NCBI GenBank assembly: GCA_022449455.1
Contig: JAKUPL010000020.1
Span: 1-64,000 of the forward strand
From: Alcanivorax sp.
GTDB lineage: Bacteria; Pseudomonadota; Gammaproteobacteria; Pseudomonadales; Alcanivoracaceae
DNA length: 64,000 nt
Direction of reading: 5' to 3'
The notes under the pieces are model-generated. The model saw nothing but the letters and a program-made list of their open reading frames with translations, was not told the DNA's origin and did not search any database. This document shows positions 51,049-64,000 of the stretch, piece after piece. Numbering within the stretch: the stretch's first letter is position 1; each line of letters opens with the position of its first letter. The position numbers and the translations under genes are program-made.

Positions 51049-51354
51049 TCACGCCCGCACCAAACTCTCCCGCGATATCTCCCCAACCGCCCGCGCCCCG
51101 GTCAGCGTCATCGCCACCTTCATCTCGCTGGCGATCAGGTCCAGCACATGGGCCACGCCCTGCTCGCCGGCGGCGGCGAGGGCGTAGACGAAGGCGCGGC
51201 CCAGCAGCACGCCGTCCGCGCCCAGGGCGAGCAGGCGCACCACGTCCAGGCCGGAGCGGACGCCGGAATCCGCCAGGATGGTCAGGTCGCCCTGCAGGGC
51301 GCCGGCGGTGACGGGCAGGGCTGGGGCGGAGGAAAGCGCACCACCGAGCTGGCG
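51049..51354 (-). pseudogene. lldD 3'-end fragment
   Basis: About 100 codons encoding the C-terminus of an FMN-dependent L-lactate dehydrogenase ([33 protein letters not shown] onward to a TGA after SLVRA). It is almost identical to the 3' part of the complete lldD 1.4 kb away, but has a different final few codons. No start codon or N-terminal two-thirds. Confidence 0.85.
51065..51354. repeat. 290-bp direct repeat, copy 1
   Basis: Aligns without gaps to 52728-53017. One stretch of ~130 bp and another of ~80 bp are identical; differences cluster toward the right-hand 60 bp. Confidence 0.9.
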
Positions 51355-51461
51355 GTCATCGTAGAGTATGAGGAAAGCATTTATGCGCCGAATTTTACCG
51401 GTTCAAAAATAGCTACACCTCTATCATTTGCCGACACCGCACCTATACAGAAAATCCGCGA

Positions 51462-52705: not shown

Positions 52706-53848
52706 TTAGTACTCCGCATCGACCAGACTCTCCCGCGAAATCTCCCCAACCGCCCTGGCCCCGGTGAGCGTCATCGCCACCTTCATCTCGCTGGCGATCA
52801 GGTCCAGCACATGGGCCACGCCCTGCTCGCCGGCGGCGGCGAGGGCGTAGACGAAGGCGCGGCCCAGCAGCACGCCGTCCGCGCCCTGGGCGAGCAGGCG
52901 CACCACGTCCAGGCCGGAGCGGACGCCGGAATCCGCCAGGATGGTCAGGTCGCCCTGCACGGCGTCGGCGATGGCCGGCAGGGCCCGGGCCGAGGACAGC
53001 ACGCCATCAAGCTGGCGCCCGCCGTGGTTGGAGACGACGATGCCGTCCGCGCCGAACCGCACCGCCTCGCGGGCGTCCTCCGGATCGAGAATACCCTTGA
53101 GCACCATGGCGCCCTGCCAATATTCCCGAATCCATTCCAGATCCCGCCAGCCGATGGACGGATCGAAGTTCTCGCCCAGCCAGCCGATGTAATCCTCCAG
53201 CTGGATGCGATGGCCCAGATAGGCCGACACATTGCCCAGATCGTGCGGCCGCCCGCGCAGGCCCACGTCCCACGCCCAGCGCGGGTGCGTCACCGCCTGC
53301 AGCATCCGCCGCCAGGCCGCGAACGGCCCGGACATCCCCGAATGCCGATCGCGATAGCGCGCCCCCGGCACCGGCATATCCACCGTGAACACCAGGGTCC
53401 GCACCCCCGCCGCCCAGGCCCGCTCCAGCGCGTTCTTCATGAAACCGCAGTCGCGCAGCACATACAGCTGAAACCACATCGGCCGCGTCATCGCCGGCTG
53501 CACCTCCTCGATGGGACACACCGACACCGACGACAACGTAAACGGCACGCCCCGCGACGCCGCCGCCCGCGCCGCCTGCACCTCGCCCCGCCGCGCGTAC
53601 ATCCCGGTGAGCCCCACCGGCGCCAACGCCACCGGCAGGCTCACCGCCTCCCCGAACCACCGCGCCGACAGATCCACCTCCCCCACCGCCTTCAACACCC
53701 GCTGCCGCAACGCCAGATCACGCAGATCCGCCACATTGCGCGCCAGGGTGTGCTCGTCGTACGCGCCCCCGTCGATGTAATGGAACAGGAACGGCGGCAG
53801 GCGGCGTTTGGCGGCGAGGCGGTAATCGTGGGTGGAGGAGATGATCAT
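52706..53848 (-). CDS. lldD: FMN-dependent L-lactate dehydrogenase
   Basis: 380 residues, full length. [30 protein letters not shown] opens the protein; [27 protein letters not shown] (catalytic His and Arg) and [13 protein letters not shown] are conserved. Oxidises L-lactate to pyruvate at the membrane, feeding quinone. The last ~290 bp before the extreme end are duplicated at 51065. The 3' end may have arrived with the inserted AT-rich DNA. Confidence 0.93.
52728..53017. repeat. 290-bp direct repeat, copy 2 (inside lldD)
   Basis: The intact counterpart of 51065-51354, within the lldD coding region. The 1373 bp between the copies are AT-rich and unlike flanking DNA. Confidence 0.9.
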
Positions 53849-54231: not shown

Positions 54232-54388
54232 GATCCGCCACTATGGCGGAAGCGACACTGGGGAGTTCGGGCTGATTCGGAAGTTTTGGCGGCCGTTTTC
54301 GGAAAGGCATCGTGACAATCAAGTCGGCCTATTAAATCGCGAAAGCAGAAGCTTCGTAACTCTGTCACACCCAGAAGGGAGGAGTTAA
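54206..54388 (+). CDS. Small basic hypothetical protein
   Basis: 60 residues starting MKKIKPNIEIRHYGGSDTGE, basic in the middle (RKFWRPFSERHRD). GAAGGAG six bases before the ATG and a 26-bp overlap with the previous frame suggest a coupled pair. Could equally be fortuitous; no homologue recalled. Confidence 0.4.
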   Translation: MKKIKPNIEIRHYGGSDTGEFGLIRKFWRPFSERHRDNQVGLLNRESRSFVTLSHPEGRS

Positions 54389-54505
54389 GCAATGACCGCC
54401 GTTGCTTGGATAAGCCCCATACTTGCCCCAACCGAATGCTATGCATCAAAGCACGAAAAAACAATAGTTTAGAATCTAGCCACTCACAACCAGACTATTC
54501 CTCAA

Positions 54506-54538
54506 ATTTGCCTTTCTACCTTTATCCAAAGGGCAAAT
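54506..54538 (-). terminator. Hairpin after the defence operon
   Basis: ATTTGCC-TTT and AAAGGGCAAAT can pair as an 11-bp stem with one bulge around a 12-base loop, 10 bp past the last stop codon of the minus-strand operon. There is no clear T-run, so termination is probable but not certain. Confidence 0.4.
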
Positions 54539-54548
54539 CAGAAGATAT

Positions 54549-56492
54549 TTACTCGTCCGGGTCTAGCTCCATTTGCACGATGAGACCGCAGCGCGCGACG
54601 TCAGAGATAGCCGAGGGGGATATTTTCGATTCCACGATAGTGGCGACAGTATCAACCTTTGGCTTCGCGTCATCTTTATCCGGCTGCTCCTCAGACAGTT
54701 TCAACAAGCCAGCTTTCCTGGGCTTATCTAGGGGTAATTCAAATGCCTGAAAGCCCGACCTAAAGATCTGACGAATTCGAGTCTGCTCCTTAAGAAGCTG
54801 AAAAAACCTTTTACTGGGCTGAGCAACATCATCAAGACTCATATCGAGCAGTGCCGCTGTCAGATCATCCTCGCAGCTTGAATCAATTATCGCCGCCGCG
54901 TATTTGCCACGACGGGGAATAAGCAAATTTCCTGTAATCCGAATCCTGTTCGGTATCTCAATTAGCTTAACACCGCCCCCTTTCTGAGGAGCGTAAAAAG
55001 ACGCTCGAAAGCAAAATGACCTTGGGAGCGGGGCGAGATCCCCCACCCGGCCGACACTGCTGATAAGCTGCTGGCGCAGATTAAGAGCTGATCCTTCACG
55101 CAGCCTCGCAATAATATCCATGCTGCCGCGAGCAGGGTTGAGCAGCCGTTTTGCCTGACCTAAGCTAATAGTTCGCAAGTCACCGAAGTGCCAATCTATA
55201 TGAAACCGTTTGTCTCCGTCCAGCACTACTATCGGGGTAGTATTGGCATTCACGGCCAGATCAGGTTTAGGCGCGTCGATTTTTTTTAGTCTTCCAGCCA
55301 CCAATAAAGCAGTTTTTAACCCATCTTTCCGAAGCAAGTCACAGGCTGGAGAGGCCACAAAAAAAACGAGATCACCTCGACCCGAGAAAAAACCACGAGG
55401 AGCTATAGGCCTACCGGCCCTGGGTCCCAATATATCCCCAAAGGCGATGGGCCACTCGGCGCCACTACCATGGTTGCGGCGTTCAGGATTGACAAAAATA
55501 GTACGTTCTAAAACAGCATAAGTATCACGGTCATTTGAAATCATCAACGGAGCTGGATCTTCGGCCACTTTATCAAGTGGAGCCGCGGCGTCCAAGACGG
55601 CCTTGTATGACTCGATCTCGTATTGAAGAACACGGTCAAACACATCAAGTATATAACTAGATGTATTAACCCCCTCAAAGCGGAGCAGCATATTTCGAAT
55701 ATGCTGCAGATCGTCAATATCAACTTTTCGTAAAGTATTCGCTGCGGCCCTAGCCGCTTCGACAGCGCTATCTTCCCAAGTCTTTAGGAAAGTAGCCAAC
55801 GCCTGACTGTCGGCTCGATGCGATGCAAGAGTGAGGATCAGCCCTTTCATGCGTCCCGAAGTCGACAAATCATTCTTTCTTATGTGTCGAAACGACGAAG
55901 CATGGAGTTTGACATCCTGACGAAACTGTTTAGCCAGTTCATCGATTCCCGGGACCTGCGACATTAAAATAATAGAAGGAAGGGACTGCATTTCACGACG
56001 TTCAAGAACCTGTCGAAGTCTTTCAACCGTAAACTCTCGATCACGCACCCCCTGCTGAATACCTAGAAAAAGGTCTATAACTATCAAGTCCACACCAGTT
56101 GCAGCATCGACAAATTCTCGCCCACATCTTTCGAAAGAGATTCCGAGAGAAGTAAGCTCTGACTCAACCTTCTCTAGAAAAGTTCGAGTTTCACCTATTT
56201 TTTGTTCATAGTTATAGAACAGCTCACGAACAAGATCACCAAGATCAGCCCTGTTTTGCCACAAGGCATCAACAAAACCCTGACTATATCGAAGCTCGTC
56301 GCGTCTATCAGGGTGAAAGCCTGGAAAAACACCCGCTACTGTTTCCACGGCTTCGCCATAGGTGTCGTCAAAAAAAATATCCCAGGCTTCTTCGTCAATT
56401 AGCTCTGAAACCTGAGGAACCTCATCATATCCATCGTCAACAATAATTGCAGACCTGATACCAGCGTCACGTACTTTTTTATTATCGTTCAA
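54549..56492 (-). CDS. Divergent response-regulator-like protein with large C-terminal domain
   Basis: 647 residues. The N-terminal ~210 look like a receiver domain: acidic pair D19-D20 (AIIVDDGY), candidate phospho-acceptor D140 (DLIVIDLFLG), S178 (SIILMSQ) and K206 (HIRKND). About 110 residues are inserted between the first strand and the acceptor strand. The remaining ~430 residues (FVNPERR, FFVASPACDLLRKDG, FHIDWHFGDLR) match nothing I know. The start is TTG within the kinase stop (TTGA overlap). I infer it is the output of the adjacent histidine-kinase module. Recall of a Pfam family named Response_reg_2 should be tested by HMM. Confidence 0.7.
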   Translation of the reverse strand: MNDNKKVRDAGIRSAIIVDDGYDEVPQVSELIDEEAWDIFFDDTYGEAVETVAGVFPGFHPDRRDELRYSQGFVDALWQNRADLGDLVRELFYNYEQKIGETRTFLEKVESELTSLGISFERCGREFVDAATGVDLIVIDLFLGIQQGVRDREFTVERLRQVLERREMQSLPSIILMSQVPGIDELAKQFRQDVKLHASSFRHIRKNDLSTSGRMKGLILTLASHRADSQALATFLKTWEDSAVEAARAAANTLRKVDIDDLQHIRNMLLRFEGVNTSSYILDVFDRVLQYEIESYKAVLDAAAPLDKVAEDPAPLMISNDRDTYAVLERTIFVNPERRNHGSGAEWPIAFGDILGPRAGRPIAPRGFFSGRGDLVFFVASPACDLLRKDGLKTALLVAGRLKKIDAPKPDLAVNANTTPIVVLDGDKRFHIDWHFGDLRTISLGQAKRLLNPARGSMDIIARLREGSALNLRQQLISSVGRVGDLAPLPRSFCFRASFYAPQKGGGVKLIEIPNRIRITGNLLIPRRGKYAAAIIDSSCEDDLTAALLDMSLDDVAQPSKRFFQLLKEQTRIRQIFRSGFQAFELPLDKPRKAGLLKLSEEQPDKDDAKPKVDTVATIVESKISPSAISDVARCGLIVQMELDPDE

Positions 56493-58882
56493 CTGTCTTC
56501 CCCAGCCACGCGATAGTCGAATGTCGAAAAGCGCCCTTCGCCGTTGAGCGCTTCCGGGTCTAACACCAGAGCACCGCCGTTGTGTTCCGCTGCCTCCCGG
56601 GCTATAAAAAGTCCAAGACCACGCCGGCGACTTTTATCCTTGAGAGAAAAGAATAGGTCGAAGATTCGATCTTTATATTGCCTGGAGATACCAGGCCCGT
56701 TATCAGTGAAGCGTATGCGTGGGGGATTGTCTTCTATCGCAATTGTCAATTCCGGCTGGAAAGACATCTTGCGCTGCTTCTCAATATCCAACCAGTATAG
56801 GGAGTTAGATATGAGATTTTCTAATACTTGGACAACCATACCCTTGACAGCAGATACCGGAACCGACCGGCCAGGCGGCAGAACAGTTAGCCTAACTTGG
56901 TGCCGCTCGAACTGTGTTTCATGAGCTTCCAGCATGTCATTTATAAGTTCATCGAGGTTAAAACGCTCTTTGCGCTGCCTCCCCGTGACACTCAAAGGGT
57001 CGAGAATACGCAGCCGCTTGCTAATGCTTGTCATAGACGCCCTTAAACTTTCCAAGCGACGCCTAATCTCCTCTGGAACCGTTTTGTGCTTAAGACTGTT
57101 TAGAATATCAAGAGCATCTTCGGCTGACCGTGTGAGCTCATGAGCAACCACCTCTACCATCAAGCCAATTCCTGCCATAGCTATCATCTGGTCAGCGTCT
57201 TTTTCCATATCTGCAATTCGTTCACGAGCCTGGGACGCAAACCGTGCGAATTCCTCGCGCATCAGTTCGAGCTCCTGGACCACCTCCCTATGCTCAGACG
57301 GCACAACCTTTCGGATCGACTTGATCGCAGTTTTCATCCTTTTTTCCAGATCTGCAGTCTTAGTCTCGTCAACGTTGAAAAGCTCTTTAGTATCTTTTTG
57401 TTCTTTGGTGACGCGATTCATCTCATCTCGAAGGCGCGATATAGCGAACTGTATGGTCTCTCTTAAAATTGCCTCTTCAGGCGTCTGACGAAGCCCTTCT
57501 CTATTAGTTTGATCAAGGAGTTGCGGATTAGAAAAACGGCCGATATCAACATGCCCAACCAGCTGAATTCTGTTTAGTGCGTAACCCTTAGATCTAAGAT
57601 GAGCCCTATCCAATTCAAGCCAATCGTCATCCTCTGAGCCATATGGATAAACCCGGAAGCCATCCCTGTAGAGACGAACGCCCATCCATTGGTCGAGCAA
57701 ATTTCGCAAAGCCTGATATTCCCCAGTGGACTTGCCTTTTCTTTGTACAGAGCGATTAAACCAATAAAGCTCAAAGCTAAAGGGCCCTACACTATTTAAG
57801 GCAGCATAATCGATGTCGCGCTTATTCATCCTTCGACGTTTAGCTTTAGGGCCGACCAACGCGCCATAAAGATCATCAACTGAAGCGCGCTCAATGTTCA
57901 CTTCACGCGAATGCTCAAAACCAAGATTGTTTAACTCAATCCTTATTGTTAGTTCCGGCCCCTTATGCCCTATACAGTAGCTGCCTCGAACCAAAGCGTT
58001 GGCGTGAGAAAGAAAGCTTTTCTCCAACCTGCGTATACTTACTCTTTTTTTATTCCAAAAAACCGCAATACGCTGGCGCCCCCCCTTGCTTAACGGGTTT
58101 AAAAGCAAAGAAAAGTCATCTATAGCGAGGCGCTCTACGCGTCTCTCTGTCCAGTCAGCATTGAGTTTCCTGATTTCAATATCCGTTCCACTGAAACCTG
58201 GAGAAGTTTTGATTTCCCCTCGCCTCGGCTTTACGTCAATGTCTTCTATCATCTTTGAGGCATTATCGAAATCCGACCAATCAATCTCGATACAATTATA
58301 ATTCTTGTCATCCAGCCTAGCTGTTCTTACTGAGAGTTTATCGCCAAGTCGCATAGCCGATAACCTGCCAATGCCTTTCTCACCAAGAAAGGGGGCATTA
58401 GGCTTTCCTCCTGCCATGGCAGCATCTATTTCACTTTTTCTAGATGATGTTCCTATCACGAGAAAGACACTATCCAACTCGTCTAAGGACATACCCGACC
58501 CCGTATCTGAGATGGTAATAGAGTTCAAACCATCGATACGTTCAAGTGCCTCGAGCAAACCTTTATAAGAATCAGCCTTATCGACAATCTCTTTGGCTAC
58601 CGACCAAAGCTGCTCAGCTTCCGTACAAAGTTTGTCTGCAACTTCTTCTTTTAGATCTTCCAAGTCAAGTGAGACTTCACTTCCAGCCTCAATGGCGCTC
58701 AAGATTTGGGATTTGGATTCCTGATAGTCACGCCTTCCTAGAACAATACTAAAGTTAATTGTGACGCCATCCTTTGATCCCGCATCAATGCCATTCTTTA
58801 TTAATTCATAGAACGCAATAGCATCGGAGCTTATTAGTTCCGACCCCAACTCCAATATAGTGCGGGCTGTCACCTTAAACAT
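56489..58882 (-). CDS. Dual GHKL protein: Hsp90/MutL-like ATPase plus histidine kinase
   Basis: 797 residues with two ATP-binding GHKL modules. Module one: E26-x3-N30-x2-D33 (YELIKNGIDAG), DTGSGM at 126-131, GEKGIG at 167-172, as in Hsp90/MutL. Module two: H-box H581 (MVEVVAHELTRS), N-box E688/N689/N693 (VLENLISNSL), D727-N-G-P-G (FTDNGPGI) and G-L-G-L at 755-758. A charged coiled-coil stretch (~480-570) separates them. No membrane helix, so it senses a cytosolic signal. It overlaps the regulator gene by four bases. Autophosphorylation is inferred. Confidence 0.82.
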   Translation of the reverse strand: MFKVTARTILELGSELISSDAIAFYELIKNGIDAGSKDGVTINFSIVLGRRDYQESKSQILSAIEAGSEVSLDLEDLKEEVADKLCTEAEQLWSVAKEIVDKADSYKGLLEALERIDGLNSITISDTGSGMSLDELDSVFLVIGTSSRKSEIDAAMAGGKPNAPFLGEKGIGRLSAMRLGDKLSVRTARLDDKNYNCIEIDWSDFDNASKMIEDIDVKPRRGEIKTSPGFSGTDIEIRKLNADWTERRVERLAIDDFSLLLNPLSKGGRQRIAVFWNKKRVSIRRLEKSFLSHANALVRGSYCIGHKGPELTIRIELNNLGFEHSREVNIERASVDDLYGALVGPKAKRRRMNKRDIDYAALNSVGPFSFELYWFNRSVQRKGKSTGEYQALRNLLDQWMGVRLYRDGFRVYPYGSEDDDWLELDRAHLRSKGYALNRIQLVGHVDIGRFSNPQLLDQTNREGLRQTPEEAILRETIQFAISRLRDEMNRVTKEQKDTKELFNVDETKTADLEKRMKTAIKSIRKVVPSEHREVVQELELMREEFARFASQARERIADMEKDADQMIAMAGIGLMVEVVAHELTRSAEDALDILNSLKHKTVPEEIRRRLESLRASMTSISKRLRILDPLSVTGRQRKERFNLDELINDMLEAHETQFERHQVRLTVLPPGRSVPVSAVKGMVVQVLENLISNSLYWLDIEKQRKMSFQPELTIAIEDNPPRIRFTDNGPGISRQYKDRIFDLFFSLKDKSRRRGLGLFIAREAAEHNGGALVLDPEALNGEGRFSTFDYRVAGEDS

Positions 58883-58894
58883 ACATAACCCCCA

Positions 58895-59731
58895 TTATTT
58901 ATGGCAAGAAAGGCATCCTTTCGCCTTACCATAAAGATCATCAATATCCAAAGGCTCACTATCTGAGCGTAGAGGATTGATCTCAATCTTTGTTTTCTGC
59001 TTTTCTATGCGTCGCTGATGATCTCGTTTTATCTGAGCAACTCGTTCTGGTTTGGAAAGCTCATCTAAAGACTCACCTTGGCTCCACGTGAATGGAGAGC
59101 CATGATCGATCGCGTTTTTTTCGTAAGCCTTAGCCTCTTCAAACGCATTCGGATGACGCTCCATGAGTCTTACCCATTCGATTTTCTGTTGATAAAAACA
59201 GAAGGTACAACCGCTACGAGTTCGCCATGAATAGTACTCGGGAAGCCCGAGCCCAGCCCCTTCCAGAATATCCAAAACGCCAGCTTTATCTATCCCGACT
59301 TCTTTAAAAGGTAATCTTATTATCAAATTTTTATCTTTTGAAGCATATCCTTCTCGATATTCTTCATCACCCCGAATAGCCACATAGCTATAAACTTTTA
59401 TGCCTTCCAAAAGCATTGGACGCACCCATTTCTCAAATGGCTTCAGCTTCAAATCTCTGGTGCACCAACGAGTTCGCGGGGAAGGCAGAAAATTATTATA
59501 TTGCTTTAGCCAATAATCAAAATCTCGATCCGGGTTTAGTCTTAGAATAGTTTTCCCCAAAAAACCCTCTAGTCGCCCGAGATAGTCATACACCTCTGGA
59601 AGCTCTTTGCCTGTGTCGGTAAAGAAATACTCCATATCAACATCAGGATGATGTTGGCGCATATATACGGCGAGCGCTGCACTATCCCTACCGCCAGATA
59701 AACCTAAGACGTGCCTTTCATTAACAATCAT
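58895..59731 (-). CDS. PAPS-reductase/DndC-like sulfurtransferase-family protein
   Basis: 278 residues. The PP-loop S12-GGRDS-17 (LGLSGGRDSAALAVY) binds ATP or PAPS. Five Cys, C90 (RWCTRDL), C175/C178 (SGCTFCFYQ) and C273/C276 (GCLSCHK), could hold an iron-sulfur cluster as in DndC. R86-T-R-W-C and Y125REGYAS are also DndC/CysH-like. Assimilatory reductase is unlikely given the defence-type neighbours. Sulfur transfer to a nucleic acid or nucleotide is my inference. It starts two bases after the large ATPase stop. Confidence 0.82.
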   Translation of the reverse strand: MIVNERHVLGLSGGRDSAALAVYMRQHHPDVDMEYFFTDTGKELPEVYDYLGRLEGFLGKTILRLNPDRDFDYWLKQYNNFLPSPRTRWCTRDLKLKPFEKWVRPMLLEGIKVYSYVAIRGDEEYREGYASKDKNLIIRLPFKEVGIDKAGVLDILEGAGLGLPEYYSWRTRSGCTFCFYQQKIEWVRLMERHPNAFEEAKAYEKNAIDHGSPFTWSQGESLDELSKPERVAQIKRDHQRRIEKQKTKIEINPLRSDSEPLDIDDLYGKAKGCLSCHK

Positions 59732-59733
59732 AT

Positions 59734-62700
59734 CTATGCGACCTTGCCGCCTCCTGACTTCCGTTTCTCCATCTTAGTAACTTGCATGTAGCTAGCGCTT
59801 AACTCAGCCAACGCAGCCAGTATAACACTTCGGCTTTTTGTATCTACGATCTCTAGAGTTTCCGAAATCCGATCTACAAGATCGCGGATAGCGGCTCGGT
59901 CCGAGTCAGTTACGTCAAACTCCTCCAGAAGCGGTGTGGGGCGGCCCTCCACCCCAATCAACACCGCCATTGCCAGCCTCTTCTCCGGACGCCCCTTTAT
60001 CCTTGTAAAGGTCTCGGCCCTGAGGAACTTTTGCGCCATATCCACAAGCTCGATAGAAGCTCGATCCATATCCGGGTCGACCCAGTCTCTGGGCGGCTTG
60101 TTTGCCGCAAGACTTGCGATACCCTCAAATGCTTGGTCACCTGCCTCGAATTGGGATAGGCGCCCGACAAAAGCATCTAACCGGAAATCTCCAGCAAGTT
60201 CTTTGACATTTTCAGCCCGCTCACGAAGCTCTAGGAGAGACTGACGTGAAAGATTAGGAACCTGCAGTTCGGCGAGAAGCATATCCCTAAGCCGGTGGAC
60301 CATAAGAGGATATGCTTGCACCAACTCCTGCAATCCTTCCTTCATTATCGAGACGATATTGCGGATATCGTCTTTGTCAGACATGCCGGCTTTTTCGGAA
60401 CTGACCAGTGCCGGGATATCGTCAAACAAGAACTTGTTCGGATCACGCGCACGCTTAAAAATGGCGCGTACTTCAATAGCTCTTGCCGACAAGCGCATTG
60501 TCCGTTTTGTCCAGTTTGGCAGCTTTTCATAAATCGCCACGAGACCACGAGCAACATCAATAGGTTGAAGGTGCTTCAGTTCGTTTTTTGCATCAAGGTC
60601 TCGTACAACGTCAGCCATATCGGAAAGCATGCGACGTGAAATTTTATTGAGGTCCATCCAGCGCAGCTGGATGGTCTCCGCATCCTTTGCCATATATTCA
60701 ACATCGACGTCATCAAACCGTGCACGGAAAATACCTTCCCGATAAACAGCAAGGTTTTCCCTCTCAGAAAGAATAAAGGCGACTGACAGAACCGGCATCA
60801 ATCCATCTTTGATTCCGTATGGTTGCTCGGCCCAGAGTTTATAAATCTCTAATACGGAAACTGAACGCTTTTTGTTCTTCTTTATATACTCAATAGCTGC
60901 ATTCCAGGCAGGAAAGAGCCTATATTTATCAGTCCCACCGTCAGAAGGCGCCAAGAAGCGCCAACCATCCTTTGTTTCTGAATATAACCCTGTGGCTTCC
61001 AGTAATGAGGCATAAAGACCGCCTTCTGCCGGGTAGCCCTCGATGCCCAAACGTACCTCGCCCTCTCTCGTGATCATATGGTTTAAAAGAGCGTTTTGTC
61101 CCGCTATAGCGCTACCGGAAGGCTTTTGCCTGTTCAGAAGTTCATTGTGAAGTTTTGGACATTGATCGTAGCGCCTTTCTGCAAGGTCGGAGGCTAGGGC
61201 ATTCAGATCAGCCTGACGGTAGTGCCTTGTAGAATGGTGTTTACGGCACCATTCGGCTTTATCGAGGGACTTCGTAAGCTCGGTTTCCAATTGTGCCTGC
61301 AAATCTGCAAGTCTTGCTGTGACCTCACGCCGCGCAACAGGATCACCCGCCAACTCCGGATGATCATTATTCACTTTATCGAGTGCCAATAACTCGCGTG
61401 CCAACATTACGACCGACCAGGCCCGCGGCGAATAGCCTGCCACGATATCCCACTGATCGCTCAACTTGGCTGCGTCCCGGCAAAGTGTCTTAACGTACTC
61501 TTCCTCTTCACCCTCTGTCGGCACCACAAGCAGGAATTCGCCAATGACACCATTATTGGGTTGAAATCGAGTCGCTACATCCATCACATCTTTGGCTGGC
61601 GTGATATTTACATCGAACCACCGCATAGCGCCGGTTTCATGGTAGTGGCGTTTAGCCAAAACGGGCTGCAACCCTGCCAATGATTTGAGTGCGTCAAAAT
61701 CAAGCTCATCAATTTCCTCAAGCGCCACGCCTACGGCTTCATCAATATTGAAGTCACTACCGGCAAAAATGGCGTGTGCATCCTGGAACTTCTTGAAAAT
61801 AGTCAGAGACCATTTATCCAGCCTCTCCAGTGCTGCTTTTAGATCCTTCGCACTGACATCGGGAAAGCATGTCTGGATAAGTCCAAAACTTGGAACGAGA
61901 CCGGAGCGCTCTTTAAAGAGATCAACCACGGCTATCGTTTTTAGAAGATCAACTAGAAATCCATCACCCCCCAAAGCCTCACAGCGCTCAAGTGCCTCTG
62001 CGGCGAGCGCCCAACGGTGACCATCTGGCGAAGCGAGAATGGAAGGCTCCAGATTGGCGCGCAAGTAATCCCAAAGTTTCGAGGGTGTATAGAGGTCTTC
62101 CTCATTCGCCGAGCGCAAGTAATCCTGAAAGCCATGCGGTTCCGCCGAATTGAGAAAGCCAAAAATGCTTCGCTGGTTTTGGCCAAACCGGCGACGGGAA
62201 ATCGGTCCGAGTAGACAGGCAACAACCGGATGCAACGGCCAACAATTTTTTAGCATCTCCGCTAGGCGGTCGGCGTCCTGGCTGCGGTCCTTTCGAGCTA
62301 TCTTGGCAACAGCTTTGGATTGATCCTTGGAGCGAGAACCCACCTCATTACATTCAATCGCACGAGATATCAGGTCTATCTGCTCTTCGCCGATTGTATT
62401 GACAGGCAAGTCAACAAAGCGCCCCTGAATTTTTGCCCATTCGTCACGAAGCTCGTGTGAAAGGCGATGTGCGTATTCGTCAAAGGCTTGGTGCAAAACA
62501 CCGACGAACAAAAAACGGCCATTGCTTCGGGAGGCGGCCTCCGCGAGTTGCTGGAAGATATAAACATCCGAACCATCCTGCGCGGCCGCTTCAAGGAATT
62601 TCCCCATCTCATCGACAAACAGGATTAAGCCGCCGTGCATCTTAGGCCTGCTTGTCGCAACCTCCATCAAGCCGTTGACGACATACTCTTCGGTCCAACC

Positions 62701-63129
62701 ACCCTTCGGGCGACGGGTTACGTACCCTACTTCTTTTAGGGCTTCTCCTAATACTTCGACGGGGCTCTCTCTACGACCTACAACGGGTAGAATACGCCAA
62801 CCTTTTGAACCCGTCGGCAGCGCCTCCCACATGGCATTGGTGAGCTTACGCCCAAAGACTTTTGCCGCCTCTTTCTGTAACTCCTGATTACCGTTGAGCA
62901 ATGCACTTAATGCGATTGCCAAACTAGACTTACCGCTTCCGTAAGGGCCAGTCCATGTAAACGCGCCTTGCCCGGTTTCCGAGACATGCCGGGCCATGGA
63001 CATGAGAATGTCGGCGGAAGATTGCGGACATATGAATCCATCAAGGGCGTTTTTATCGCCCAAATCCGTATCGATGCGAATGGATTTCTGAAAACGTCGG
63101 GCTATCGTAACTTGATCAACTAACGCCAC
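59734..63129 (-). CDS. Large P-loop ATPase of the putative defence operon
   Basis: 1131 residues. Walker A is G61-PYGSGKS-68 (FTWTGPYGSGKSSLA), Walker B LILFVDE at 168-174, and a sensor-like FLFVGVLHQAFDEY follows. The rest (~850 residues) is helical and charged with no motif recognised, ending in a Lys-rich KRKSGGGK tail. It resembles in layout the BrxC/PglY/DptH-type ATPases of BREX and Dnd systems, but I cannot assign it to any of them. The start is GTG at 63129, sharing one base with the DUF4007 stop (TAGTG). Confidence 0.8.
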   Translation of the reverse strand: MALVDQVTIARRFQKSIRIDTDLGDKNALDGFICPQSSADILMSMARHVSETGQGAFTWTGPYGSGKSSLAIALSALLNGNQELQKEAAKVFGRKLTNAMWEALPTGSKGWRILPVVGRRESPVEVLGEALKEVGYVTRRPKGGWTEEYVVNGLMEVATSRPKMHGGLILFVDEMGKFLEAAAQDGSDVYIFQQLAEAASRSNGRFLFVGVLHQAFDEYAHRLSHELRDEWAKIQGRFVDLPVNTIGEEQIDLISRAIECNEVGSRSKDQSKAVAKIARKDRSQDADRLAEMLKNCWPLHPVVACLLGPISRRRFGQNQRSIFGFLNSAEPHGFQDYLRSANEEDLYTPSKLWDYLRANLEPSILASPDGHRWALAAEALERCEALGGDGFLVDLLKTIAVVDLFKERSGLVPSFGLIQTCFPDVSAKDLKAALERLDKWSLTIFKKFQDAHAIFAGSDFNIDEAVGVALEEIDELDFDALKSLAGLQPVLAKRHYHETGAMRWFDVNITPAKDVMDVATRFQPNNGVIGEFLLVVPTEGEEEEYVKTLCRDAAKLSDQWDIVAGYSPRAWSVVMLARELLALDKVNNDHPELAGDPVARREVTARLADLQAQLETELTKSLDKAEWCRKHHSTRHYRQADLNALASDLAERRYDQCPKLHNELLNRQKPSGSAIAGQNALLNHMITREGEVRLGIEGYPAEGGLYASLLEATGLYSETKDGWRFLAPSDGGTDKYRLFPAWNAAIEYIKKNKKRSVSVLEIYKLWAEQPYGIKDGLMPVLSVAFILSERENLAVYREGIFRARFDDVDVEYMAKDAETIQLRWMDLNKISRRMLSDMADVVRDLDAKNELKHLQPIDVARGLVAIYEKLPNWTKRTMRLSARAIEVRAIFKRARDPNKFLFDDIPALVSSEKAGMSDKDDIRNIVSIMKEGLQELVQAYPLMVHRLRDMLLAELQVPNLSRQSLLELRERAENVKELAGDFRLDAFVGRLSQFEAGDQAFEGIASLAANKPPRDWVDPDMDRASIELVDMAQKFLRAETFTRIKGRPEKRLAMAVLIGVEGRPTPLLEEFDVTDSDRAAIRDLVDRISETLEIVDTKSRSVILAALAELSASYMQVTKMEKRKSGGGKVA

Positions 63130-64000
63130 TATGCCGCCTCTCTTTCATTTGAACGCTCAAAGTCCTTTTGAACAAATTCTAATGCACTGCCGAAATCAAA
63201 CTCAGGGCTGCGTACAACCTGCTTTAATCCAGCGGTCTCTGACCATCGCAGTGCATTATTTGTCACGCTATCTATATGGGATAACCTATCAGCAACATCA
63301 TTCTCATCAAGCAAGAACACGCGTCCTGGCGAGCCCGGCTCATGCGCGATCGCTTCAAAAGAGAGTGTTGAGGATGCGGGCGAGAACTCCTTCCAAAACT
63401 CAATCAAGGCATAGACGAACGTGCCGTCACCTAATGTGGTCTTTTGGCCGCGAACAAACCTGAATTCATCACGTTTTGATACGGGCTTGATCAACCCGAG
63501 TTCGGTAAGGGGGCATTCAAGAGAGTCGTCTCGCCCGGCTTTTGCGGAGGATGGTTGGGCGGCATATGTACGGACAAAACAAGCCACATCATTCTTAACC
63601 GTCGTCTGAGCGGCATTCGGCCAATCGTGCTGTAATCGCTTAATGAATTTGTCTCGTTCAAATGTTACCGCCGAATAATAACTAAACGCCCAATACCACG
63701 TCGTCTTTTTCTTCCATTCAGTTGCCAACTTCCAGTGAATCAGCCATAACGAATTTGGGTATTCCAGAAAAGGATCAACGCCATGGTCTCCGAATAACAG
63801 TTGGCCGAGCGGCGTGGTCTTAACCTGATTAGTGCCTGACGGCTCCTCAATAATGCCCGCGACAGTGCCCCAATGGCGCATAGATGACACCATATTCTTA
63901 CCCACACCAAAGCGCGCAATGGCATCTTCTCCCCAACACAGAGACTTATTGTCCGGTTCCTGCTCGGTTTCAGACACGCGGTCGTAGCACTTCTTTAGCC
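63129..64000 (-). CDS. DUF4007 family protein, N-terminus beyond window
   Basis: The visible 290 residues contain the DUF4007 hallmark ARFGVGKNMVSSMRHW, followed by LGQLLFGDHGVDPFLEYPNSLWLIHW, which suggests a winged-helix DNA-binding start. A GTG at 63977 is not the true start: the frame stays open to the window edge and reads LKKCYDRVSE, the normal family sequence just before that point. DUF4007 genes recur beside PAPS-reductase-like and ATPase genes in predicted defence loci (recollection). Role probably recognition of nucleic acid. Confidence 0.78.
   Translation of the reverse strand, partial: LKKCYDRVSETEQEPDNKSLCWGEDAIARFGVGKNMVSSMRHWGTVAGIIEEPSGTNQVKTTPLGQLLFGDHGVDPFLEYPNSLWLIHWKLATEWKKKTTWYWAFSYYSAVTFERDKFIKRLQHDWPNAAQTTVKNDVACFVRTYAAQPSSAKAGRDDSLECPLTELGLIKPVSKRDEFRFVRGQKTTLGDGTFVYALIEFWKEFSPASSTLSFEAIAHEPGSPGRVFLLDENDVADRLSHIDSVTNNALRWSETAGLKQVVRSPEFDFGSALEFVQKDFERSNEREAA

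Follow-up and report, generated by a model that had tools for sequence, protein, structure and literature searches.

A transferable kinase/receiver cassette beside an Ssp phosphorothioation locus of Alcanivorax, a candidate for its response step

Which component could take the response step of an Ssp phosphorothioation system whose genome yields neither SspE nor SspF? This question is raised by a stretch of 64,000 nucleotides from Alcanivorax sp. (contig JAKUPL010000020.1, positions 1 to 64,000), hereafter referred to as the window, in which the genes of three Ssp proteins are closely followed by those of a histidine kinase and a receiver protein. The best explanation, to which we give an even chance, is that this locus is a variant Ssp system in which kinase and receiver form a transferable phosphorelay cassette that either carries out the response step or governs it.

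A preliminary description of the window had proposed an undescribed defense operon combining sulfur chemistry with a kinase relay, in a set of genes shared by no known system. All five packed minus-strand open reading frames are present as it described: sspB (DUF4007; 63129-64000, running past the window edge to contig position 64148, where this fifth gene begins), sspC, encoding a large P-loop ATPase of 1131 aa (59734-63129), sspD, encoding a PP-loop sulfurtransferase-like protein in which the five announced cysteines were counted (58895-59731), the histidine kinase gene (56489-58882), and the receiver gene (54549-56492), which encodes 647 aa from a TTG start that overlaps the kinase stop. 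Kinase and receiver genes share 4 bp (56489-56492), 12 bp separate sspD from the kinase gene, 2 bp separate sspC from sspD, and base 63129 is common to sspB and sspC; one operon-like run is thus supported. Its G+C content of 0.435-0.536 per kb at 54-64 kb, versus 0.57-0.72 in the first 50 kb, bears out that it is AT-richer than its flanks. The contig extends past the window to position 79,862, and an sspA-like cysteine desulfurase gene is found at contig 64238-65410 on the plus strand, divergent from sspB.

The novelty claimed for the modification genes did not survive. SspB was identified by Pfam (DUF4007, 1.1e-73), by PADLOC (SspB, 1.8e-92), and by its match to the solved SspB 6juf (3.8e-34). 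SspC matches the PADLOC model PDLC02780 (E=0, 1368 bits), the best BrxC model reaching 350 bits, and SspD matches PADLOC SspD (6.8e-137), the best DndC model standing at 5e-4 and Pfam PAPS_reduct at 7.3e-6. SspA matches cysteine desulfurase structures down to 5e-86 (IscS, DndA) and SspA 6m4j at 2.5e-57. Given these identities and the adjoining sspA, the modification half is the known Ssp phosphorothioation system, so an undescribed modification operon was dropped as a candidate, while sulfur chemistry on DNA, as proposed, is supported as likely. Dnd was also rejected at this locus: the PADLOC models that the ATPase matches are SspC and BrxC, and none of the five proteins scanned matches DndD or DndE. 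The wider claim that the set as a whole is without precedent fails for a second reason, since kinase genes near Ssp are already in print in the accessible portions of PMC7464106 and PMC12421847.

With regard to the other two genes, a genome scan with the kinase alignment, from which the best 80 of 137 relatives were kept, gave 79 loci (designated by L numbers). By length and score, 75 kinases and 68 receivers of these loci were aligned together with the window's own. The kinase carries two separate HATPase domains according to Pfam (HATPase_c_3 and HATPase_c), as the proposed dual-GHKL architecture had implied, together with a HEF_HK match of 24.5 bits (cut-off 24.1); among 10 kinase relatives, HEF_HK reaches its cut-off in four, stays below it in four, and is without a match in two. 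A GHKL and transducer head (residues ~1-490) is followed by the HEF_HK region with H581 and by a catalytic domain (~636-797). In the AlphaFold2 model (pLDDT 81.6 overall, 40-49 over residues 561-590 around H581), the head resembles Hsp90 7l7i (Z 22.9) and MORC3 5ix2 (Z 22.6, 302 aligned, 3.4 Å), which are tied, and then MutL (Z 18.9), and the catalytic domain resembles ThkA 3a0t (Z 18.8, 147 aligned, 2.0 Å). MORC and MutL use such a clamp-type ATPase head on DNA, and by this analogy the kinase would likely be a sensor of DNA state. Residues E26, N30, D126, G128, H581, E582, N689, and D727 are invariant across the 76 aligned kinases; two patterns, DQTNREGL and [MQ]VE[VIF]V[AM]HE, served to find some of the kinases and bias invariance at their sites, and HE of the second corresponds to H581 and E582. 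Conservation identifies H581 (codon 57140-57142) as the predicted phospho-acceptor.

The receiver protein has no match in Pfam, PADLOC, or NCBIfam. Its AlphaFold2 model (pLDDT 87.2) shows a receiver domain (~8-226) with a long helical insert, which resembles KdpE 4kfc (Z 13.6, 116 aligned, 2.3 Å), followed by a helical middle and a C-terminal domain (~320-647). D19, D20, D140, and K206 are found in 69/69 receivers and S178 in 68/69, and D140 (codon 56073-56075) is the predicted phospho-acceptor. The pair therefore shows the hallmarks of a two-component system, namely the kinase histidine with N and G boxes, and the receiver fold with acid pair, phospho-aspartate, Ser/Thr, and Lys; the preliminary view of a cytosolic pair is supported in that neither protein has a known membrane domain. 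In the C-terminal domain, C384 (codon 55341-55343, in a Cys-Asp-Leu motif), W434, R482, and G484 are present in all 69 receivers. A sequence search of the PDB at E 1 gave no chain for this domain, and Foldseek returned nothing at E<=0.001 in PDB and viral libraries; the VIA-align rows mostly span receiver residues 2-317, so that they barely probe its fold. A known nuclease was considered for this domain and is not supported, with no nuclease Pfam match in the 69 members and no PDB sequence match; the sole Pfam match among these is one weak NusB. The domain weakly resembles the C-terminal part of three receivers of the type that accompanies restriction-modification (R-M) systems (whole-protein E 1e-5 to 6e-4), which suggests that the C-terminal domain may not be unique to sulfur systems. 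Receiver relatives were found in one of 369 genomes of the class, the Alcanivorax source genome itself, and in neither the viral-contig scan nor the phage collection. The receiver diverges faster than the kinase (dN 0.455 versus 0.048 between L050 and L060). These two receivers are only about half identical, with changes along the whole protein, which may reflect diversifying pressure or replacement.

The arrangement of the window recurs in the 79 other kinase loci, far above chance, as a gene-neighborhood comparison suggested in the preliminary description revealed. The receiver lies directly downstream of the kinase in 75/79 loci (fragmented receivers in L076, L078, and L079 being counted as present), and the other four contigs end within 160 bp. 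SspB, SspC, or SspD is in view in 69/79 loci; the remaining ten include six with SspA or SspFGH genes, one 4.4-kb contig, and L043, L066, and L076, with no ssp gene above threshold in view. The pair stands between sspC and sspD in 10/79 loci and closely after sspD in 36/79, and the loci span 12 phyla by record annotation, with one locus unassigned and many metagenome bins. Plasmids show the same association: in the 11 examined of 199 records with a kinase match, nine kinases have at least 30% identity and all stand beside ssp genes, and the other two, under 26% identity, stand beside C5 methylases. In L076, a frame of ~540 aa before the kinase (L076:8250-9878) has a weak SspD-profile match (45 bits) and is perhaps a DndC-like partner, in which case sulfur systems other than Ssp may also take up the pair.

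Several different modules were found beside the pair in the 79 loci: SspFGH in 26, helicase-MORC-PLD in nine, HNH-STAND in seven, SspE in five, U805 in five, and helicase-PbeC in four, with none of these in 30 loci, some of which lie on short contigs; some of the family profiles used were built from few seeds. Three of these families deserve a separate description. The triad of helicase, GHKL (MORC-like) ATPase, and PLD-type protein, for which not always all three genes are in view in the kinase loci, also stands beside Ssp in five of ten kinase-free loci (L122, L124, L125, L126, and L128) and is possibly a common Ssp effector. The U805 family, of ~805-816 aa and with at most a very weak HATPase_c_3 match, is a candidate new effector (L010:12458-14905, L017:12170-14599, L020:14346-16799, L048:14375-16804, L008:6922-9339, and L155:16621-19143); its gene comes soon after that of the receiver in L010, L020, and L048, and at a distance of 0.7 kb in L017. 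The HNH-STAND protein, directly after the receiver in L023 (14524-17481) and also in L030, L031, L036, and L042, exhibits an AAA/STAND-like domain, tetratricopeptide repeats, and an N-terminal stretch that is weakly HNH endonuclease-like. Finally, an 821-aa protein after the receiver in L053 (14559-17021) has a C-terminal SEC-C motif, and its only PADLOC match, PDC-S12, covers the same tail.

Kinase and receiver behave as one evolutionary module and the modification proteins as another. In the 60 loci where each of the five proteins exceeded its minimum length, distances correlate strongly for kinase and receiver (r 0.972) and for SspB-SspC (0.974), SspB-SspD (0.894), and SspC-SspD (0.895), and at only 0.59-0.61 for kinase or receiver versus SspB, SspC, or SspD; 0/500 permutations reach the observed r, and the values are uncorrected for shared ancestry. 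The window itself is a mosaic, its kinase being nearest to those of L017, L010, and L011 (79-80%) and its SspC to those of L036 (81%) and L019 (78%). On a tree of SspC with 65 pair-bearing and 10 pair-free rows, the pair label changes seven times, at least six changes being forced by starred branches. On the kinase tree, 85 kinases labeled as Ssp-linked stand on one side of a branch with support 99, and 12 of R-M type on the other. Both trees were built with FastTree and gave long-branch warnings. The Ssp-linked label was given to every kinase of L010-L088 that is 650 aa or longer, among them those of L014, L043, and L076 without an ssp gene above threshold and six kinases known only by SspA or SspFGH (L016, L063, L066, and L079 being too short), and the R-M label means a PF19192 match and no ssp gene for L141-L150, methylases having been sought only in L152 and L153, both positive.

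A natural cassette swap at the sspD end is observed in one family of conjugative elements. L021 and L031 share 7,429 bp at 96.1% identity as far as the sspD end and, further on, 4,827 bp at 92.9%, conjugation genes among them; L025 and L030 show the same pattern (96.6% and 95.7%), and L015 and L027 show the left side only (95.6%). Between the conserved blocks, L021 and L025 contain only a kinase and a receiver of the window's clade; in L030 and L031 this place is taken by sspE, an HNH-STAND gene, and another kinase/receiver pair, the kinases of the two cassettes being 48.6% and the receivers 31% identical. Between L021 and L025, dS is 0.018 for the kinase and 0.013 for the receiver versus 0.179 for sspC, which indicates that the cassette moved recently. 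Both genes are under purifying selection, with dN/dS of 0.03-0.09 for the kinase (9/9 pairs) and 0.07-0.24 for the receiver (in the 7/9 pairs for which it was computable).

Searches for SspE and SspF covered the window genome, 17 of the 30 relatives without an effector in view, and controls. Full-length SspE was found in 0/18 genomes and SspF only in L024 and L041, so that 16/18 have neither. The window genome gave no match to PF03235, PADLOC SspE, or SspF; control genomes were positive in both SspE-type searches (8/14), and the positive controls matched in 3/3 cases in the SspE search and in 3/3 in the SspF search. An SspH query matched in the window genome by its C-terminal motor only, in a 793-aa frame. 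A search of the window's last 14 kb and of L002 with eleven effector proteins, SspH not among them, gave no trace of any (best E 0.27).

These observations are consistent with the following mechanism, in which all biochemical steps are inferred. SspA-SspD would mark host DNA with phosphorothioate, as their homology suggests. The MORC/MutL-like head of the kinase would use ATP to clamp DNA and there check the state of the mark, or of the DNA-bound SspBCD machine, against the expected one. Sensing would set the autophosphorylation of H581 and the transfer to D140 of the receiver, as the conserved residues and folds suggest, and phosphorylation could expose or release the C-terminal domain, which would act on a partner or on DNA. 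In loci with a nuclease module (SspE, SspFGH, HNH-STAND, or others), the relay would gate the nuclease; in those where none is found, such as the window locus, the receiver would either provide the output or have a host target. The cassette swap makes this model, in which the kinase senses and the receiver acts, more plausible. A stronger proposal, which we put forward tentatively, is that kinase and receiver functionally replace SspE/SspFGH, with the MORC-type clamp kinase reading the sulfur mark or its absence and the C-terminal domain of the receiver as the effector.

Several findings weigh against the relay as response arm or as its switch. In 49/79 loci, the pair has a known or likely effector module at its side, which fits regulation as well as output. 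The genome-wide search in the SspE/SspF-free genomes covered SspE and SspF only, and only 11/17 relatives (12/18 with the window genome) gave no match of any strength, weak partial GmrSD-type matches being found in L019 (2.2e-11), L071, and L081 and a weak SspF-like match in L029 (1.6e-4). The genomic island that holds the locus contains a predicted nuclease ~2 kb beyond sspA and a weak HEPN match. An SspD search matched 191/398 genomes of the phylum at E 0.001, with 11 matches above 290 bits and the next at 90, and in these 11, the only ones examined, 0/10 of the other strong SspD loci have the pair within ~10 kb; counted both ways, the pair is nearly always with Ssp, but Ssp is usually without the pair. 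The pair is also somewhat clustered on the SspC tree, with 3/500 label shuffles giving as few changes. In Acinetobacter, the portion of PMC7464106 available reports a kinase adjacent to SspE in 211 strains, and that of PMC12421847 notes further restriction-endonuclease genes in the region that holds the sspE-less Ssp of A. baumannii.

The explanations considered here are not mutually exclusive, and their odds overlap. The one that survives best alongside the relay as response arm, and which we regard as a possible but not a probable account, is that the pair regulates the expression of ssp or effector genes and takes no direct part in restriction itself. Regulation is the most frequent role of two-component systems, many different effectors accompany the pair across the 79 loci, and the reassortment of modules suits a generic regulator. 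In the accessible part of PMC7464106, such control of SspE is speculated on for Acinetobacter. Set against this, the input part of the kinase is neither a membrane nor a small-molecule sensor but an ATPase head of the DNA-clamp type, 16/18 of the genomes searched have no full-length SspE/SspF to regulate, and no helix-turn-helix Pfam domain was found in the 69 receivers, although their C-terminal fold could bind DNA.

The remaining alternatives concern the island itself. The left flank is kept in six other genomes of the genus, the longest matches reaching ~54.28-54.30 kb, and the right flank, from 69.42 kb, is present in 2/6 genus stretches, in one of which (L169) both flanks are only ~4.4 kb apart; between the flanks, no match of at least 150 bp was found in any of the six stretches. 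This points to an island of ~15 kb at contig ~54.28-69.42 kb, the left part of which (54282-64000 of the window) has a G+C content below that of the chromosome. Adjoining the island, a fragment of a flavin mononucleotide-dependent dehydrogenase gene is repeated beside an intact copy (window 51052-51363 and 52709-53848), and similar fragments are found in some other genomes of the genus.

It is unlikely that the window locus is a remnant, that is, an Ssp modification island without its former nuclease and with an orphan relay. Some of the closest kinase relatives have an extra gene after the receiver (U805 in L010, L011, and L017, and the SEC-C protein in L053), beyond sspA there is a transposase gene, and no more than ~270 bp separate the receiver stop from the island end, all of which would suit such a loss. 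The genes are intact, however, the eleven effector proteins left no trace there, kinase-receiver-Ssp loci without full-length SspE/SspF occur in 15 other genomes, and kinase and receiver in the group of L015, L021, and L025 show dN/dS of 0.08-0.15 at low divergence. That the true output is instead the predicted pPIWI-associating nuclease at contig 67422-68246 (L002:7422-8246; Pfam pP_pnuc_1 5e-35 and pP_pnuc_2 7e-29, PADLOC Aga_Nuclease 4e-68) or the RiboL-PSP-HEPN protein at contig 68708-69409 (L002:8708-9409; 3.4e-4, below its cut-off), both in the same island, is very unlikely, as the transposase gene separates both from sspA and no relatives of either (E 1e-3) were found among the open reading frames of the kinase loci or of the further loci included in that search.

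A phosphorelay that takes or controls the response step would have a bearing beyond this genome: SspE-less Ssp loci can be common, and as a swappable and conserved element the relay is a concrete candidate for the response arm that they lack, or for its switch. If this is true, a histidine kinase with a DNA-clamp-type ATPase as input would represent a new route from DNA state to a phosphorylation signal.

Compared with known systems, the locus shares with Detocs, the output of which is a nucleosidase domain, a kinase/receiver pair in defense, and differs from it in that no nucleosidase Pfam match was found in the 69 receivers. With BREX type 4, as presented in the portion of PMC12839542 available, it shares homologues of SspB, SspC, and SspD; that system was rejected at this locus, since none of the eight island proteins scanned with Pfam is PglZ or BrxL. 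The paraMORC GHKL ATPases of R-M systems (PMC2292703, in the part accessible) have a similar N-terminal GHKL and S5-like head, which here is fused to a histidine-kinase core. Closer still is the HEF_HK/Response_reg_2 pair tied to R-M systems and C5 methylases (PMC8011034), the main text of which does not contain "phosphorothio", "DUF4007", "PAPS", or "BREX". It has the same kinase architecture of HATPase_c_3, HEF_HK, and HATPase_c, an adjoining receiver, a link to DNA modification, and the weak receiver similarity, which reaches into the C-terminal part. In contrast, 0/69 Ssp-type receivers match Response_reg_2 (PF19192) at E 0.01, and no match is found in the Alcanivorax genome itself; the kinases occupy a separate tree branch, and those of R-M type are ~990-1155 aa long in 10/12 cases versus ~800 in the Ssp-linked family.

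Ssp, the HEF_HK kinase architecture (PMC8011034), and kinase genes beside Acinetobacter Ssp (PMC7464106, PMC12421847, in the portions available) are thus already in print. The two Acinetobacter reports describe a kinase near Ssp in one genus; PMC12421847 also mentions a two-component system in the Ssp region, suggests a possible new variant, and finds sspE missing beside A. baumannii Ssp in 5,518/5,530 cases, leaving the nuclease open. The receiver family, the clamp-type head, the spread over 12 phyla, and module swapping were not found in their accessible parts. A. baumannii CP040048 (L151) has the order HK-receiver-SspD-SspC-SspB with a distantly related receiver (E 2e-17). In the 30 kb analyzed, this locus has no SspE/SspFGH, and it may be relevant to the species' sspE-less Ssp loci. 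A general Ssp partner role of the cassette was not found in the portions available of PMC8011034, PMC12839542, PMC12421847, PMC7464106, PMC2292703, PMC12137116, and PMC10853773, the main text of the last containing none of "histidine kinase", "receiver", and "two-component"; a literature search that most subscription papers and preprints lay outside yielded no published account in which the pair is presented as a swappable cassette that accompanies Ssp in general. Finally, the locus agrees with SspABCD-SspE and SspABCD-SspFGH in possessing all four modification genes, with sspA beside sspB-C-D, and differs from both in that its genome has no SspE-type or SspF match and sspD is followed by the kinase/receiver cassette.

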